Positions 1 through 7,112 of a stretch of DNA of 7,112 bases are shown piece by piece. The stretch is from Oscillospiraceae bacterium (GTDB taxonomy: Bacteria; Bacillota; Clostridia; Oscillospirales; Oscillospiraceae). Below the pieces are notes generated by a model that saw only the letters and a program-made list of their open reading frames with translations, did not search any database and was not told where the DNA came from. Positions within the stretch are counted from its first letter, which is position 1. Each line of letters begins with the position of its first letter. Made by a program: the position numbers and the translations under genes. The stretch covers positions 1 through 7,112 of the forward strand of contig JAIEIQ010000254.1 of the NCBI GenBank assembly GCA_029065305.1. The letters run 5' to 3'.

Positions 1-1431
1 GGGGTGCTGGCCGCTGTGGAGAGCGAGGGCGGGAGCTATGGGCGCTCTGACGCGCTGAGGGGGCAGAAGATCATGGTGGAGTTCGTCTCCGCCAACCCCA
101 CCGGGCCCATGCACATGGGCAACGCCCGGGGCGGCGTGCTGGGGGACACCCTGGCCGCTGTGCTGGAGGCCGCCGGGGCCCAGGTCTGGCGGGAGTTCTA
201 CGTCAACGACGCGGGGAACCAGATTGAGAAGTTTGCCAACTCTCTGGAGGCCCGGTATCTCCAGATACTGCTGGGGGAGGACGCGGTTCCCTTCCCCGAG
301 GACGGCTACCACGGCGACGACATCCGGGAGCTGGCCCAGGCGTATTATGACCAGTACGGGGAGAGCTTGAAGGATGTTTCCAGGGAGGAGCGCCACGCCG
401 CCCTGGCGAAGTTCGGCCTGGAGCGGAACATCCCCAAGATGCAGAGCGATCTGCGGCGGTATAAGATTGAATATGATCAGTGGTTCTTTGAGTCCGAGCT
501 CCACAACACCGGCTATGTGGCCGAGACGGTGGACAAGCTGTCCCAGCGGGGGTACACCTATGAGAAGGAGGGGGCCCTCTGGCTGAAAACGGCGGACATC
601 CTCCGGGAAAACCTGCTGAAGGCCGGAAAGAAGGAGAAGGACATTGAGAAGCTGGATCTGAAGGACGACGTGCTCCGCCGGGCCAACGGGTTATACACCT
701 ATTTTGCCGCTGACATCGCTTACCACCGCAACAAGTTTGAGAAGCGGGGCTTTGACCGGGTGATCAACATCTGGGGCGCGGACCACCACGGCCATGTGGC
801 CCGGCTCAAGGGGGCTATGGACGCTTTGGGGCTGGACGGGACCGGGCGGCTGGACATTGTGCTGATGCAGCTGGTGAAGCTCCTGCGGGACGGAGAGGTC
901 GTCAAGATGTCCAAGCGCACCGGCAAGGCGATCTCCCTGACGGATCTGCTCGACGAGGTGCCTGTGGACGCGGCGCGGTGGTTCTTCAATGCCAAGCCGG
1001 ACACCCAGATGGATTTTGACCTGGGGCTGGCCGTCCGGGAGGACAGCGAGAACCCCATCTACTATGTGGAGTACGCCCACGCGAGAATTTGCAGCCTCCT
1101 GCGGAATCTGGCGGCGGAGGGGTGCGCGGTTCCCGAGGCGGGGGCTGTGGACGCCGCCCTGCTCTCCGGGGAGACGGAGATTGCTCTGATCAAGCAGCTC
1201 GCTCTGTTCTGTGAGGAGCTGCGTCTGGCGGCCCGGGACTACGACCCCAGCCACATCAACCGCTGTCTGGTGGAGCTGGCCGGGTGCTTCCACAGGTTCT
1301 ACACCGCCTGCCGGATCAAGGGCGAGGAGCCTGCGGTCCTGGCCGCCAGGCTCAAGCTGGCCGACAGCACCAGGAGTGTGCTCAAAAACGGCTTGGCCCT
1401 CCTGGGCGTGGAGGCGCCGGAGCGGATGTAG
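1..1431 (+). CDS. argS: Arginyl-tRNA synthetase, 5'-truncated by window edge
   Basis: Cytoplasmic class I aminoacyl-tRNA synthetase that activates arginine with ATP and charges tRNA-Arg. The frame is open from base 1, so the true start lies upstream; the GTG at 4 is an internal valine, not a start. Visible landmarks, counting the codon at 1-3 as residue 1: the class I HIGH signature appears as HMGN (bases 112-123) inside SANPTGPMHMGNARGG; GADHHGH begins near residue 259; the KMSKS loop appears as KMSKRTG (904-924), with both lysines present; YVEYAHARI (from base 1060) opens the C-terminal all-helical DALR/anticodon-binding domain, which runs to the end. Bacterial ArgRS is about 550-580 residues with HIGH near residue 125-135 (known family), so about 85-95 residues of the N-terminal tRNA-recognition domain are missing here. 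The stop TAG at 1429-1431 is followed by hairpins and a terminator, so argS ends its transcript here. Nothing in the visible part suggests inactivation. Confidence 0.97.
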   Translation, partial: GVLAAVESEGGSYGRSDALRGQKIMVEFVSANPTGPMHMGNARGGVLGDTLAAVLEAAGAQVWREFYVNDAGNQIEKFANSLEARYLQILLGEDAVPFPEDGYHGDDIRELAQAYYDQYGESLKDVSREERHAALAKFGLERNIPKMQSDLRRYKIEYDQWFFESELHNTGYVAETVDKLSQRGYTYEKEGALWLKTADILRENLLKAGKKEKDIEKLDLKDDVLRRANGLYTYFAADIAYHRNKFEKRGFDRVINIWGADHHGHVARLKGAMDALGLDGTGRLDIVLMQLVKLLRDGEVVKMSKRTGKAISLTDLLDEVPVDAARWFFNAKPDTQMDFDLGLAVREDSENPIYYVEYAHARICSLLRNLAAEGCAVPEAGAVDAALLSGETEIALIKQLALFCEELRLAARDYDPSHINRCLVELAGCFHRFYTACRIKGEEPAVLAARLKLADSTRSVLKNGLALLGVEAPERM

Positions 1432-1433
1432 CC

Positions 1434-1465
1434 ATTCTTTTTCTTTGTGAACAAAGAAAAAGAAT
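1434..1465. repeat. Perfect 14-bp inverted repeat (stem-loop) after argS
   Basis: ATTCTTTTTCTTTG at 1434-1447 is the exact reverse complement of 1452-1465, with the loop TGAA. It begins 2 bases after the argS stop codon. The stem is very AU-rich and is followed by A-rich sequence rather than a U-run on either strand, so it is not a textbook terminator. It may protect the argS mRNA 3' end, or be part of a dispersed intergenic repeat that continues into the A-rich stretch and the following GCAAAAC hairpin. The structure is seen directly; the role is unknown. Confidence 0.8.
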
Positions 1466-1483
1466 CAAAAAGAAAAACTTTGC

Positions 1484-1500
1484 GCAAAACTGCGTTTTGC
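1484..1500. repeat. Small stem-loop GCAAAAC-TGC-GTTTTGC
   Basis: A perfect 7-bp stem (1484-1490 with 1494-1500) has a 3-base loop. It overlaps the 10-bp palindrome TTTGCGCAAA (1479-1488), and its last two bases are the first two of the terminator stem at 1499. The AAAAC arm could alternatively pair with GTTTT in the terminator U-run (1525-1529), so the hairpins could compete, but nothing shows that this is used. It may form one compact repeat module with the hairpin at 1434-1465. Confidence 0.5.
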
Positions 1501-1530
1501 TCTCCCTGGAATACTGGGGAGAGCGTTTTT
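1499..1530 (+). terminator. Intrinsic terminator of argS
   Basis: GCTCTCCC (1499-1506) pairs perfectly with GGGAGAGC (1517-1524) around a 10-base loop. It is followed immediately by GTTTTTA (1525-1531), the GC stem plus U-run of a Rho-independent terminator. It sits about 70 bases after the argS stop and before the symporter promoter, so it separates the two units. Confidence 0.82.
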
Positions 1531-1579
1531 ATCATTTATGCAAACTGCAAAAAGACTATCGTTAAAAAAGTAACTATCC

Positions 1580-1608
1580 TTGTATATTTTGTGATCATAT
1601 GCTATAAT
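1580..1608 (+). promoter_or_regulatory. Extended -10 vegetative promoter for the symporter
   Basis: The -10 box TATAAT (1603-1608) matches the consensus perfectly and carries the TGn extension (TG at 1600-1601). The -35 box TTGTAT (1580-1585) matches TTGACA in 4 of 6 positions at the ideal 17-bp spacing. Transcription would start near 1615, giving a leader of about 48 bases. The leader contains a weak GGGAG/CTCCC hairpin (1619-1623 with 1633-1637). The region from 1531 to 1600 is AT-rich, unlike the GC-rich coding DNA around it, as expected for a Firmicutes promoter. Confidence 0.85.
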
Positions 1609-1647
1609 ATCCGCCAGAGGGAGACTCCGTTGCTCCCCAATTTAGAA

Positions 1648-1653
1648 GAGGAG
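1648..1653 (+). promoter_or_regulatory. Ribosome binding site fixing the symporter start
   Basis: GAGGAG, within a longer purine run (1644-1657), ends 9 bases before the ATG at 1663. This favours that ATG over the in-frame ATG four codons later at 1675. It also argues against the upstream open frame, which extends back into the terminator region. Confidence 0.85.
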
Positions 1654-1662
1654 AGAGTGACT

Positions 1663-2889
1663 ATGAAAAAGAAAATGAGCCTGCCTGTGCAGATCCTGAT
1701 TGCCCTGGCCGCTGGTATTGCGGTGGGCCTGATCTGCTCCGCCACGGGGCTGGAGGGCTTTACCGCCAGCTACCTCAAGCCCTTCGGGGACATCTTCGTC
1801 AACCTGCTGAAGTTCATCGTGGTGCCCGTGGTTCTGCTGAGTATGATCGACGGCATCCTGTCCATGGACGACATGAAGAAGGTGGGAAACGTGGGCTGGA
1901 AGACTGTGGCCTACTTCCTGTGCACCACCGCTGTGGCCTGCGTCATCGGCCTGGTGTTTGCCAATATCTTCAACTCCATGGGCGTATTCCCCAAGCTGGC
2001 CCTGGAGGAGGGCGCTGTGTGGGAGAAGGCCACCTCCGCCAACTTTATGGATACCATCAAGGGGATTTTCCCCTCCAACATGTGGGAGGCGTTCCACACC
2101 GCCAACATGCTCCAGGTGATTGTCATTGCCCTGTTCCTGGGCGGCGCCATTATGGCCGCCGGCGAGAAGGGGAAGCTGTGCCGGGATTTTGTGTCCTCTG
2201 GCTACGCGGTGATTGAGAAGCTGATGAACTTCATCATCAGCCTGTCCCCCATCGGCGTGTTCACCATGATGGCTTGGGTTGTGGCTACCCAGGGCGCGGC
2301 CATTCTGGGCTCCCTGGCGTGGGTGCTGCTGTGCGCCTACCTGGGCTACATCGTCCACGCGGTGCTGGTTTACTCCCTGTCCGCTCAGGTGTTTGCCGGC
2401 ATGAGCCCGGCGAAGTTCTTCAAGAGCGCGTTCCCCGCCATGATGTTCGCCTTCTCCTCCACCTCCTCTGCGGCCACCCTGCCGGTGTCCAAGGAGTGCG
2501 CGGATGAGCTGGGCGCGGATGGGGACATCTCCTCCTTCGTTCTGCCTCTGGGCTCCACCATCAACATGGACGGTACCGCGATTTACCAGTGCGTGGCTAC
2601 CATCTTCCTGGCCACCTGCGCGGGTGTCAGCCTGAGTCTGGGTCAGATGGTGACCATCGTTGTGACCGCCACCCTGGCCTCCATCGGCACCGCCGGCGTC
2701 TCCGGCGCGGGCATGATCATGCTGGCTATGGTGCTGACCGCCATGGGCATCGACGTCAACCTGATCATGATCATCTACGGCGTGGACCGGCTCTTCGACA
2801 TGGGCCGTACCTGCCTGAACGTCACCGGCGATATTGCCTGCGCCGTCTGCGTGAGCAAGTGGGAGGGCAAGAAGGCTGTCAAGAAGTAA
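1663..2889 (+). CDS. Dicarboxylate/amino acid:cation symporter (DAACS, GltP/GltPh-like)
   Basis: Complete 408-residue membrane symporter of the glutamate-transporter fold, importing an acidic amino acid or dicarboxylate with Na+ or H+. It starts with a short basic MKKKMS tail and a first membrane helix. Family landmarks in order: the serine-rich hairpin-1 tip SSTSS (265-269) leading into AATLP; the TM7 motif NMDGTA (301-306), whose Asn and Asp are cation-site residues; the hairpin-2 sequence GTAGVSGAG with Ser347 where GltPh has proline; and TM8 with D375, D379, R382, T383, N386 and D390, matching D390, D394, R397, T398, N401 and D405 of GltPh. The arginine that grips the substrate side-chain carboxylate is present, so an acidic substrate is favoured over a neutral amino acid. 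Length is normal for bacterial members (about 400-440). It has its own promoter and ends before a strong terminator, so it is monocistronic. Exact substrate and coupling ion cannot be read from the sequence. Confidence 0.95.
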   Translation: MKKKMSLPVQILIALAAGIAVGLICSATGLEGFTASYLKPFGDIFVNLLKFIVVPVVLLSMIDGILSMDDMKKVGNVGWKTVAYFLCTTAVACVIGLVFANIFNSMGVFPKLALEEGAVWEKATSANFMDTIKGIFPSNMWEAFHTANMLQVIVIALFLGGAIMAAGEKGKLCRDFVSSGYAVIEKLMNFIISLSPIGVFTMMAWVVATQGAAILGSLAWVLLCAYLGYIVHAVLVYSLSAQVFAGMSPAKFFKSAFPAMMFAFSSTSSAATLPVSKECADELGADGDISSFVLPLGSTINMDGTAIYQCVATIFLATCAGVSLSLGQMVTIVVTATLASIGTAGVSGAGMIMLAMVLTAMGIDVNLIMIIYGVDRLFDMGRTCLNVTGDIACAVCVSKWEGKKAVKK

Positions 2890-2910
2890 ATCGGTTACAT
2901 AGAGAAGAAA

Positions 2911-2943
2911 GGGCCCCCATCCGGAAGGATGGGGGCCTCTTTT
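2911..2943. terminator. Bidirectional intrinsic terminator between convergent genes
   Basis: GGCCCCCATCC (2912-2922) pairs perfectly with GGATGGGGGCC (2927-2937) around the tetraloop GGAA. On the + strand it is followed by TCTTTT, ending the symporter transcript. On the - strand it is followed by TTTCTTCTCT, ending the permease transcript. It fills most of the 59-bp gap between the symporter stop (2889) and the permease stop codon (2949-2951). Confidence 0.93.
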
Positions 2944-2948
2944 GCTTG

Positions 2949-4895
2949 CTATTCGATGGATTTCAGCGACTCCGCCATATCAATTTTCCGGAGCCGGGGC
3001 CGCATGGCAAGGGTAATCAGCACCGTGAAGAGCAGCGTCAGGCCCACCGAGATGATATAGCTGAAAGCATCCACCCGGCTGGGGAAAAACATCCCGTCCA
3101 CATGGATCTGCGAGATGACGAAGGCGTGGAGGGCCTTGCCCATGCCCAGCCCGGCGATACTGCCCAGCAGTGAGAGCATATTGATCTCCCGGAACACGTA
3201 GGCCGCTATCTCGTTCTGGTAGAAGCCCAGGACCTTGATGGTGGCGATCTCCCGGATGCGCTCGTTGATGTTGATATTGGTCAGGTTGTAGAGCACGATG
3301 AATGCCAGCGCCCCCGCGCAGACCACCACGATCAGGACGATATAGTCCAGCCGGGAGAGCATCCCGTTCACCCGGTCCTGGATGGAGGCGTTTACCGTCA
3401 CACTGCCCACATCCTCCCCCTCGGACAGGCGGACGCCCTCCTCATAGGGGTCTTCATCCCCGTCCGAGCGCAGGTAGAGCATCTGGTAGTCCGGCTCTGT
3501 CCCCAGCTGCTCCCGGTAGGTCTGAGGGGAGACAAAGACGAAATTTTGAATATAGTTGTCGCAGACGCCGGAGACGGACACGGTGACAGTTCCCAGCTCC
3601 GTACTGCGCAGCTGAACCTCCGTTCCGGGCTGGAGCTCCAGGCTTTGGGCCAGGCCCGCGCTCACCACCACCTCGCCGGGGACCGGGTCCGGGATCGCCT
3701 CTGCGCCGCTGTGGAGGGAGATGAAGCCCTCCAGGGTGTCCGTGGAGGAGACGGTCAGGTAGACGGACTTCGTTCCCTCCGGGGCAATGATATCCGTACT
3801 GCCCGCGTGGGCCAGCAGGGCGTCCTCCGCCGGCCAGCCCTGCTCCGCCAGATAGGCCCCGGCGGTTTCCGGCGTCTGGGGGGCGGAGAAGGCGATCCCG
3901 TAGTCGTAGAGGATGATGTCCTCGTACTGCTCATCCACCACGGATTTGATGGAGTCCCGGATGCCGAAGCCCGTCAGCAGCAGGGCCGTACAGCCCCCGA
4001 TGCCCAGCACCATCATCACAAGGCGGCTCCGGTAGCGGAAGACATTGCGCACCGAGACCTTCCGCAGGAAGCCCAGCCGCCGCCACAGGGCGGGGATGTA
4101 CTCCAGAAAAATCCGCTGTCCGGCCCTGGGGGCCTTGGGGCGGATGAGCTCTGCCGCCTGCCGCTTCAGCTCCGCCCGGCAGGAGAGGTAGGTTGCCCCC
4201 ATGGAGCACAGCAGGGCCGCTCCGTAGGACACCGCCGCCAGACCGGGGCTGAACACGAATTTCAGCTCCGCGAAGCCGTACATGATGCCGTAGATCTGCC
4301 AGATGATCCAGGGCAGGCCGTAGCAGCAGAGGGCGTAGCCCAGCACGGCGCCCAGGGTGGCGGCGCTGCCGGCGTAGAAGAGGTACCGGCCCATGATCTG
4401 TCCGTCGCTGTAGCCCAGGGCCTTCAGCACGCCGATCTGGGTCCGCTGCTCGTCCACCATTCTGGTCATGGTGGTCATGCACACCAGCGCCGCCACCAGG
4501 AAGAAGAAGGCCGGAAACACCAGGGAGATAGCGGCGATGATGGAGGTATCGTTGTCAAAGGCGGCGTAGCCGGTGTTCTCCATCCGGGTGAGGACGTAGG
4601 TGTCCGCCGGCTCCAGCTCCGAGAGCTGCTCATAGGCGTCGGCGATCTCCACCTGGCCGTCGTCCAGCTCCCGCCGGGCGTCGGCGAACTCCGCGTCCGC
4701 CTCCGCCGCGCCGTCCAGGTACTCCGTCCAGCCGTCGTCCAGCTCCTGCCGGGCGTCGGAGAGCTCGCCGGGGGCCTTCGCCAGCTCCGCCGCCGCGTCC
4801 TCCAGCTCCACTTTGGCGTCGGCCAGCTCCGCCACGGCGTCGCGCAGCTCCTGTTCCCCTTCGGCCAGCTCCTGCCGGCCCTCCTCCAGCTTCAT
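2949..4895 (-). CDS. C-terminal fragment of the FtsX permease: end of coiled coil and both FtsX cores
   Basis: Frame of 648 residues counted from an internal ATG (4893-4895) that is probably not a natural start; the in-frame sequence upstream of it belongs to the duplicated coiled coil. Only a GGAG at 2-base spacing precedes the ATG, which is poor. Residues 1-95 finish coiled-coil arm 2. FtsX core 1 has helices at about 119-143, 176-200 and 216-236, with the coupling segment RTQIGVLKALGYSDGQI. A fourth helix spans about 291-311, preceded by the basic segment SVRNVFRYRSR, then an extracytoplasmic beta-rich domain at about 312-512. FtsX core 2 has helices at about 517-538, 571-596 and 611-632, with REIATIKVLGFYQNEI as its coupling segment, which in this family docks onto the ATPase. 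The C-terminus is SLKSIE. Reading frame and hydrophobicity look fully conserved, so any damage is confined to the duplication. No ATP-binding subunit is in the window. Confidence 0.85.
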   Translation of the reverse strand: MKLEEGRQELAEGEQELRDAVAELADAKVELEDAAAELAKAPGELSDARQELDDGWTEYLDGAAEADAEFADARRELDDGQVEIADAYEQLSELEPADTYVLTRMENTGYAAFDNDTSIIAAISLVFPAFFFLVAALVCMTTMTRMVDEQRTQIGVLKALGYSDGQIMGRYLFYAGSAATLGAVLGYALCCYGLPWIIWQIYGIMYGFAELKFVFSPGLAAVSYGAALLCSMGATYLSCRAELKRQAAELIRPKAPRAGQRIFLEYIPALWRRLGFLRKVSVRNVFRYRSRLVMMVLGIGGCTALLLTGFGIRDSIKSVVDEQYEDIILYDYGIAFSAPQTPETAGAYLAEQGWPAEDALLAHAGSTDIIAPEGTKSVYLTVSSTDTLEGFISLHSGAEAIPDPVPGEVVVSAGLAQSLELQPGTEVQLRSTELGTVTVSVSGVCDNYIQNFVFVSPQTYREQLGTEPDYQMLYLRSDGDEDPYEEGVRLSEGEDVGSVTVNASIQDRVNGMLSRLDYIVLIVVVCAGALAFIVLYNLTNININERIREIATIKVLGFYQNEIAAYVFREINMLSLLGSIAGLGMGKALHAFVISQIHVDGMFFPSRVDAFSYIISVGLTLLFTVLITLAMRPRLRKIDMAESLKSIE

Positions 4896-7112
4896 CTCTC
4901 CGTCGTGGAGCTCCCGGAGGGCCTTGTCCAGCTCCTGCTCCGCCTCGGCCTTGCCGTCGTAATATTCCGCCCAGCCGTCGTGGAGCTCCTTTCGGGCGTC
5001 CTGGAGCTGGATCAGGGCGTCGGCCAGCTCTGCCCGGCCCTCCTCCAGCTCCTTTCTGCCGTCGGCCAGCTCCTTTTTGCCCTCCTCCAGCTCCCTTCTG
5101 CCGTCGGCCAGCGTCCGCCTCCGCCGCGCCGTCCAGGTACTCCGTCCAGCCGTCGTCCAGCTCCTGCCGGGCGTCGGAGAGCTCGCCGGGGGCCTTCGCC
5201 AGCTCCGCCGCCGCGTCCTCCAGCTCCACTTTGGCGTCGGCCAGCTCCGCCACGGCGTCGCGCAGCTCCTGTTCCCCTTCGGCCAGCTCCTGCCGGCCCT
5301 CCTCCAGCTTCATCTCTCCGTCGTGGAGCTCCCGGAGGGCCTTGTCCAGCTCCTGCTCCGCCTCGGCCTTGCCGTCGTAATATTCCGCCCAGCCGTCGTG
5401 GAGCTCCTTTCGGGCGTCCTGGAGCTGGATCAGGGCGTCGGCCAGCTCTGCCCGGCCCTCCTCCAGCTCCTTTCTGCCGTCGGCCAGCTCCTTTTTGCCC
5501 TCCTCCAGCTCCCTTCTGCCGTCGGCCAGCTCTTTTTTGCCCTCCTCCAGCTCCCGCCGGGCCTTGGCGAGCTCCGCTTCGCCCTCCTCGTACTGGCGCA
5601 GGCCGTCCAGGTAGGCCCGCCGCCCGGCCTCATATTGGGCCTCCCCCTGGCGGCAGGCTTCCCGGCCCGCCTCCAGGGAGGCGTTCAGCGCACCGAGGGT
5701 TGTCTCGTTCACCGCCCCCAGCTGGGCCTCCGCAGCCCGCCAGCCGGCGGACAGCTGAGCGGCCTGCTCCTCCGGCACCAGCCCCATCTGGACCAGATTG
5801 GGCAGGGCCTCTATAAGGGCCTCGTTGGTCATGGAGCCCCCGGTGGCCTGGTTGATCTGGGCGGTCAGGCCGCTGACGGACTGGTAGAGGGTATTCAGCT
5901 GGGCGTACTGGGCCTCCCCGGCCTCCAGCTGCTCCCTGGCGGCAAGGAGCTCCGCCTCCCCGGCCTGGAGCTCCCGCTCCGCGTCCCGCAGCTCCCGCCA
6001 GGCGCTGTCCAGCTCCTCCTCGCCGTCCCGCAGCTGCCGCTCGCCGTCCCGGAGCTCCCGCTCCCCGTCGGCGATCTTCCGCTCCGCCCGGGCCAGCTCC
6101 TCCTCCCCATCCTCAATCTCCCGCTGGGCGTCCTCCAGCTTTTTCCGCCCGTCCTCGTACTCCTCCACGCCATCGGCGTACTCCCGCTCCCCGTCCTCCA
6201 GCTTCCGGAGGGCGTCGGCCAGCTCCTGCTCCGCCTCAGCCTTGCCGTCGTAGTACTCCTGCCAGCCGTCGGCCAGCTCCTGTTGGGCGTCGGCGATCTC
6301 CTGCCGGGCGTCCTCGAGCTCCAGCTGGGCGTCGGCAATTTTCTGTTCCCCGTCGGCGTAGTCGGTGAGGCCCTGGGCGTAGTCCCGCTTGCCCTGCTCA
6401 TAGTCCCGGAGGCCCTGGGCGTAGTCCGCCTCGCCGTCGGTGAGCTCCCGGTAGGCGTCGGCCAGCTCCGCGCTCACGTCCGCCAGCTCGCTGTCGTACT
6501 CCGTCCAGCCGTCGGCCAGCTCCCGCTCCCCGTCCCGGATCTCCTCTATGGCGTCGGCGTACAGGGTGTCGTAGCGCAGGTCCGCCCGATCCCCCATCCG
6601 GTCCTCCATGGCCTCCTTCAGCGCGTCGATCTGGTCGCTGTAGGCCTGGGAGTAGGGGGGCGCCGCGCCGTCCAGGGAGAGGAAGAGCTCGTAGTACGCC
6701 TCGCAGTCGAAGCCCGCCTCCGGTATGTACACAAAGCCCGCCACGCTGCCGCTTCCGATGGAGGCGGTGCCCCGCTCGTAGTTGAGGTAGTAGGGGGACG
6801 CGGCCAGGCCCACCAGGGTGTAGCTCCCGCAGGCGAAGAGCTCCCGGGTGTCCTCATCGCAGCTCTCCGAGAGGGGGATGGTCCGTCCCAGGTCCGCCTC
6901 CGTGAAGAACCGGTTGTCCCCCACGCACTCGTCCGGCGCCTGGGGCATCCGGCCCGCCGTCAGCTCCAGGCGGTTGACCCCCTCGGTCAGGGAGTGGGCC
7001 TTCAGAACCTGATCCCCCCCGTCCAGGTCCGCCAGAAAGTCGGCGTACACCGACCCCTCCGCCCCGGCCACGCCCTCCAGGGAGGCGAAGTAGGCCACGT
7101 CCTCCTCCGTAA
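4630..7112 (-). CDS. N-terminal fragment of the FtsX permease: extracytoplasmic domain plus coiled coil, with out-of-frame tail
   Basis: Open from the right edge; the GTG at 7096-7098 is internal and is called residue 1 here. Residues 1-180 form a mixed alpha/beta extracytoplasmic domain like the MacB periplasmic core, with LELTAGRMPQAPDECV (35-59) resembling the 'L.GR.P..p.E.v' turn common in this class. Residues about 185-402 are a continuous heptad coiled coil (ELADG/ELEDA-type units); 403-470 form a non-repeating tip; 471-663 are the returning coiled-coil arm. DGWxEY boxes occur at W198, W279, W570 and W651. After residue 663 (bases 5110-5112) the frame is wrong, and the sequence to the stop at 4630 is low-complexity Gly/Arg/Pro translated from coiled-coil DNA. 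If expressed, the product would lack all seven C-terminal membrane helices and both FtsX cores, so it could not work as a permease. Confidence 0.8.
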   Translation of the reverse strand, partial: TEEDVAYFASLEGVAGAEGSVYADFLADLDGGDQVLKAHSLTEGVNRLELTAGRMPQAPDECVGDNRFFTEADLGRTIPLSESCDEDTRELFACGSYTLVGLAASPYYLNYERGTASIGSGSVAGFVYIPEAGFDCEAYYELFLSLDGAAPPYSQAYSDQIDALKEAMEDRMGDRADLRYDTLYADAIEEIRDGERELADGWTEYDSELADVSAELADAYRELTDGEADYAQGLRDYEQGKRDYAQGLTDYADGEQKIADAQLELEDARQEIADAQQELADGWQEYYDGKAEAEQELADALRKLEDGEREYADGVEEYEDGRKKLEDAQREIEDGEEELARAERKIADGERELRDGERQLRDGEEELDSAWRELRDAERELQAGEAELLAAREQLEAGEAQYAQLNTLYQSVSGLTAQINQATGGSMTNEALIEALPNLVQMGLVPEEQAAQLSAGWRAAEAQLGAVNETTLGALNASLEAGREACRQGEAQYEAGRRAYLDGLRQYEEGEAELAKARRELEEGKKELADGRRELEEGKKELADGRKELEEGRAELADALIQLQDARKELHDGWAEYYDGKAEAEQELDKALRELHDGEMKLEEGRQELAEGEQELRDAVAELADAKVELEDAAAELAKAPGELSDARQELDDGWTEYLDGAAEADAGRRQKGAGGGQKGAGRRQKGAGGGPGRAGRRPDPAPGRPKGAPRRLGGILRRQGRGGAGAGQGPPGAPRRRDEAGGGPAGAGRRGTGAARRRGGAGRRQSGAGGRGGGAGEGPRRALRRPAGAGRRLDGVPGRRGGGGRGVRRRPAGAGRRPGGDRRRL
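4693..5112. repeat. Tandem duplication, left copy (420 bp)
   Basis: Identical by eye, base for base, to 5111-5530 at an offset of 418 bp. The match ends on the left between 4692 (C) and 5110 (A), and on the right between 5113 (G) and 5531 (T). The copies overlap by the two bases GC at 5111-5112, a 2-bp microhomology at the breakpoint. This copy is read in frame with the downstream membrane domains. Confidence 0.96.
5111..5530. repeat. Tandem duplication, right copy (420 bp)
   Basis: Exact second copy of 4693-5112. This copy is in frame with the upstream extracytoplasmic domain and first coiled-coil arm. Because the period is 418 (3 x 139 + 1), translation leaving this copy enters the left copy in the wrong frame, and the first novel residues appear at the junction 5110/5111. 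Which copy is the extra one cannot be decided, since they do not differ. Confidence 0.96.
5458..5562. repeat. Five tandem 21-bp units encoding ELADGRR/ELEEGKK heptads
   Basis: Units start at 5458, 5479, 5500, 5521 and 5542, alternating CTCCTCCAGCTCC and GTCGGCCAGCTC types, so the true period is 42 bp. On the - strand they encode alternating heptads of the ELEEG and ELADG type. Near-identity at DNA level within a coding coiled coil suggests recent expansion. The right breakpoint of the 418-bp duplication falls inside the fourth unit (after 5530). The first three units, and the start of the fourth, recur in the left copy at 5040-5112. Confidence 0.8.

Follow-up and report, generated by a model that had tools for sequence, protein, structure and literature searches.

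The window analysed here, 7112 bp long, is the whole of one contig (C173) in a draft genome of an Oscillospiraceae bacterium. The assembly comprises 1,878,577 bases in 377 contigs, is 70% complete with 2.9% contamination, and was, we infer, built from a metagenome. One strand of the window carries the 3′ part of argS and a dicarboxylate-type symporter gene, the other a long permease gene (Table 1). The contig ends inside this permease gene, 45 bases from the start of a second contig of the same genome (C299) in the coordinates of the nearest relative (genome G012, contig C137). A near-perfect palindrome separates argS from the symporter gene. The 50 bases around it (1426–1475) match the nearest relative at 100%, and stretches of 43–49 bases with 84–93% similarity occur in five other sampled contigs of the same genome (L044, L166, L046, L029, and L171), as would fit a dispersed palindromic element or a shared type of terminator.

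The long gene encodes an FtsX/MacB-type ABC permease, as identified by its domains, its membrane-like segments, and an ATPase gene nearby. Its downstream frame matches PF02687 (E = 2.1e-32) and PF12704 (E = 3.9e-6; 27.7 bits at a cut-off of 27). In the nearest relative, an ABC ATPase gene (9351–10178; PF00005, ABC_tran, E = 5.8e-35) lies directly upstream of the permease gene, and this stretch also matches C299 at 97%. The relative's permease is a single frame of 1315 codons (L025:5410–9357, minus strand), whose product is 99.7% identical to the database protein P0121 (1315 amino acids; cluster of 65 sequences). A simple hydropathy scan of P0121 gives membrane-like segments at residues 21–39, 786–804, 959–977, 1185–1203, and 1280–1298. 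Residues 256–770 follow a 7-residue period, with an identity of 0.33 at distance 7; distances other than multiples of 7 give 0.12 at most. The period and the positions of the segments place the heptad arrays in a large domain between the first and second membrane-like segments, which, from what is known of the family, we take to be extracellular and coiled-coil. Two long open frames run antisense across the arrays; they are probably an effect of the GC-rich repeat and could be mistaken for genes.

Table 1 Features of the 7112-bp window.
Feature	Position	Strand	Remarks
argS, 3′ part	1–1431	+	
Near-perfect palindrome	1434–1465		between argS and symporter gene
Dicarboxylate-type symporter gene	1663–2889	+	PF00375
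Long FtsX/MacB-type permease gene	window edge down to 2949	−	
Upstream frame of the split permease	4630–7110	−	codon first base 0 mod 3; stop 4630–4632
Downstream frame, from first ATG	2949–4895	−	codon first base 2 mod 3; stop 2949–2951
First heptad array, same protein	5967–6549	−	P0121 residues 256–450, placed by arithmetic
Second heptad array, holding both breakpoints	4589–5637	−	P0121 residues 560–770, placed by arithmetic
Copy nearer gene 5′ end	5111–5530	−	read in upstream frame
Copy nearer gene 3′ end	4693–5112	−	exact 420-bp repeat, period 418
Junction specific to the duplicated state	5102–5124	+	2-bp GC overlap
Antisense open frame over heptad arrays	3546–5816	+	756 aa
Antisense open frame over heptad arrays	5077–7110	+	678 aa

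The permease gene is split by an exact tandem duplication. Two segments identical at 420/420 positions lie head to tail with a shift of 418 (1 mod 3), overlapping by two bases (GC at 5111–5112), and the match extends by 0 bases on either flank; the initial annotation had located this repeat correctly to the base. By our arithmetic, the copy nearer the gene 5′ end encodes approximately residues 595–735 of the relative's protein. Exact direct repeats in the corresponding part of the single-copy relative reach 34 bp at most, which argues that a 420-bp repeat did not arise by chance.

Translation across the duplication yields the two frames that had been described from the window alone. The upstream frame, whose first 68 codons lie beyond the contig end, follows the copy nearer the gene start, loses the correct frame at the junction, and continues for ~160 out-of-frame residues. 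The downstream frame contains the remainder of the array, the membrane segments, and the MacB_PCD and FtsX domains. Its first ATG, at 4895, has a GGAG stretch directly upstream, and the frame itself is open back to 5309, so that both frames are open together over 4633–5309. The upstream frame aligns to P0121 residues 69–735 and the downstream frame to residues 668–1315. As both halves align without gaps to what is one frame in the relative, a single copy goes with a single frame.

Comparison with orthologues agrees with the earlier proposal that removing one unit restores an uninterrupted gene. Window positions 1–5112 align with L025 2463–7573 of the nearest relative at 96.3%, positions 5111–7112 align at 96.5%, and the two alignments overlap over the relative's one copy of the unit, which lies in its intact 1315-codon frame. 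A 97% protein match in JAAWUC010000092.1 (metagenome-assembled Oscillospiraceae bacterium, isolate ABMPRH_163_4; L126) probably comes from this relative's own contig. We searched 24 other genomes of the genus with a 648-amino-acid query: 22 match nearly the whole query strongly, G008 gives a weak match only, and G004 none. Twenty-one of these 22 orthologues were read, G018 being left out at a contig edge, and the frames taken were those ending in the gene's own C-terminus. Seventeen are open from start motif to stop and encode 1091–1352 amino acids, protein length varying in the genus; two run off the contig (G001, G010) and two have unread bases close to the frame's upstream end (G002, G003). 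A split by duplication was seen in none of the 21, of which the 17 are readable from start to stop.

The junction 23-mer was found in one of 400 genomes of the family, its own, the 400 including nine other genomes of the genus. The junction 24-mer was found at 0 places in a genome contig database from which own or near records were possibly left out. A protein search with the out-of-frame tail (region 660–826) returned nothing at E ≤ 0.001 among 7944 scored candidates, namely those sharing most words, a procedure that would miss proteins hidden in 90% clusters.

How the joint was formed is constrained by the array around it. Of the 479 pairs of shared 10-mers in the relative's array, 478 have a shift that is a multiple of 3, so exchange between array repeats would keep the frame. 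The observed shift is 20 × 21 − 2, leaving the joint two bases off the 21-base period. An origin by unequal exchange between the heptads was rejected: the shift is neither a multiple of the period nor in frame, and the joint has only two shared bases. Those two bases and the out-of-step shift point to an illegitimate joint, whether made in a cell, in a library, or in a computer. The ends show a 2-bp GC microhomology with 0 bp of extension and no long homology, a weak sign that is frequent by chance.

The copies differ at 0/420 positions; against the relative, the unit differs at 11/420 and the upstream piece at 70/2002. By the rule of three, the divergence between copies is below ~0.7% (95% upper bound), so a real duplication would be at most ~1/5–1/4 as old as the species split, by our own arithmetic and with gene conversion ignored. 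The event had been called extremely recent or artificial; 0/420 upholds recent or artificial, and a bound of ~0.7% does not force "extremely". Compared with the relative, the upstream piece has 43 synonymous and 23 non-synonymous codon differences, the downstream piece 51 and 20. With this excess of silent change and no other lesion, the gene may be read as conserved. An old functional duplication was rejected, the copies having no divergence and the nearest relative a single copy.

We scanned the window and 100 further contigs of the assembly for repeats and overlaps; 73 were readable (window included, 439,303 bases) and 28 were masked as N. No other exact direct repeat of at least 40 bp lies within any of the 73 readable contigs (439,303 bases). 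Systematic duplication in this assembly was rejected, with a tandem copy in 1/73 readable contigs. Three pairs of readable contigs share end sequences that were left unmerged: L031/L180 over 77 bp (100%), L048/L164 over 94 bp with one mismatch (L048 1–94, L164 7775–7868), and L079/L176 over 40 bp with one mismatch. Within the sample, the 77- and 94-bp stretches were found only at the ends concerned, once at each, and no tRNA or Rfam element was found at the overlapping contig ends tested. The 40-bp overlap has a 90% copy inside L079, so L079 and L176 may instead share a repeat. Each of the three overlaps includes a contig from the later 18, which were a non-random choice. No exact end overlap of 20–300 bases was found in the first 55 readable contigs (window included), which indicates that unmerged end overlaps are infrequent. 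The one-mismatch L048/L164 overlap suggests that strains were mixed in the assembly.

Several further observations concern contig ends and shared stretches. The L048/L164 overlap lies within coding sequence that, read by eye from the letters, looks GyrB/ParE-type. A 49-base stretch is common to the interiors of L069 and L179, away from their ends. An AT-rich stretch of 85 bases lies at contig ends in both the genome studied and the nearest relative (L030 6630–6714 and L147 5943–6027); it is 100% identical, the permease contigs being ~96% alike, and may represent one end of a mobile or repeated element at which both assemblies stopped. A 20-kb piece of the nearest relative, tiled against the genome studied, gave scattered matches without an informative pair of contig ends. 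The relative's 2462 bases before the window match, besides the window, only the end of contig C243 (matches of 99 and 43 bases).

We lean towards an assembly or library mis-join as the source of the second copy, a weighting that is our judgement rather than a computed value. Two pieces sharing a 420-base overlap were probably placed end to end, or a loop arising from a few chimeric reads was traversed once too often. The genome itself would then, we infer, be single-copy, the second copy having been made by the assembly step. The repeat has the shape of a missed overlap, the end of one piece being the start of the next, identical to the base. The assembly is fragmentary, a contig end falls in the same gene, and some end overlaps remain unmerged. 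The relative has one copy, the gene no other lesion, 17 of the 21 genus frames read are open throughout, and among 400 family genomes the junction is seen in its own only. The single copy in the relative's intact gene makes the second copy likely to be an assembly error and, failing that, probably a recent accident without special function.

Part of this evidence cuts both ways. Identical copies absent from close relatives are what a mis-join predicts, but a real recent duplication would show them equally. The join contains no N, which counts against an artefact. The exact 77-bp end overlap hints at a de Bruijn assembler, and such an assembler does not normally create junction words without reads. 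The lack of a second tandem copy in 439 kb indicates that this assembly does not make such copies often. The relatives' single copies are themselves assemblies, in which a true duplicate can be collapsed. The duplicated and single-copy states differ only in the junction and in read depth. Because every short word of a single-copy molecule also occurs in the duplicated one, sequence alone does not separate a recent event from an artificial one, and a true fresh duplication looks the same.

A genuine recent tandem duplication, joined illegitimately at the 2-bp microhomology and inactivating the permease in the sampled strain or a part of its population, is a possible but less probable account. 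The junction is gap-free with its 2-bp overlap, and the identical copies limit the age of such an event to the fraction of the split from the relative given above. Against a real duplication, short-read assemblies do not usually resolve an exact repeat of 420 bp but collapse it or break there. Joints at microhomology are usual in E. coli, where amplification of lac had microhomology at 40/40 sequenced junctions (PMC3161906); an overlap of 2 bp is, by our estimate, also expected by chance in about 1 in 5 random joints at this base composition. None of the relatives read showed the duplication, no second site of the junction was found, and no further lesion has accumulated. A real duplication would also tend to be lost again through recombination between the copies.

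Much less plausible is a reversible on/off switch, in which the out-of-frame duplication would silence the permease and the 420-bp copies would recombine at high frequency to restore it. Since 418 is not divisible by 3, the number of copies would set the frame, and PMC4235727 lists homologous recombination of tandem duplications among the mechanisms of localised hypermutation. That perfect copies should recombine and so reactivate the giant permease in some of the cells at each generation is nonetheless highly improbable. None of the 21 genus orthologues read showed the duplicated state, and nothing points to recurrence; each assembly shows one state, the junction being in 1 of the 400 family genomes, its own. 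With 34 bp as the longest exact direct repeat in the relative's array region and repeat-driven changes there that would stay in frame, nothing seen predisposes the locus to duplicate again. An old working arrangement is hardly credible, whether it relied on read-through by a +1 ribosomal shift within the doubly open stretch (4633–5309) or on an internal restart at the ATG at 4895 with its GGAG: the two copies are identical, the relative has a single copy in one frame, and stop-free frames are common in the GC-rich array, antisense too.

Under the mis-join and under a recent duplication alike, the underlying gene is ordinary, and the locus is not a new kind of element. The case cautions against giving a biological meaning to a perfect, gene-breaking repeat in a fragmented draft assembly until the reads have been checked. 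Should the duplication be real, it would show a gene freshly inactivated in this way, caught ahead of decay or collapse, and in an array whose ordinary repeat exchange would have preserved the frame. Among the titles listed in a literature search on assembly duplication, repeat switches, and permeases of this type, none concerned this gene.

The gene shares PF02687 and PF12704 with listed FtsX-like or MacB-type permeases that have long repeat domains, some of them listed under Oscillospiraceae; it is itself split, whereas the 17 intact proteins of the genus measure 1091–1352 amino acids. In tandem-repeat phase variation, as treated in PMC4235727 and PMC12817950, the copy number of a direct repeat could likewise set expression or frame, but the present locus gives no evidence of alternation or recurrence. 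Microhomology-mediated bacterial duplications also have junctions of a few shared bases; the amplicons described in PMC3161906 average 22.7 kb, originated under selection and had been verified in cells, whereas the unit here is 418 bp and known from its sequence. The false duplications of vertebrate genome assemblies likewise place adjacent copies where one is found elsewhere and produce false gene changes. The cases described in PMC9516828 come from diploid genomes and mostly lie across gaps, whereas ours is read from the letters of a gap-free bacterial draft contig.
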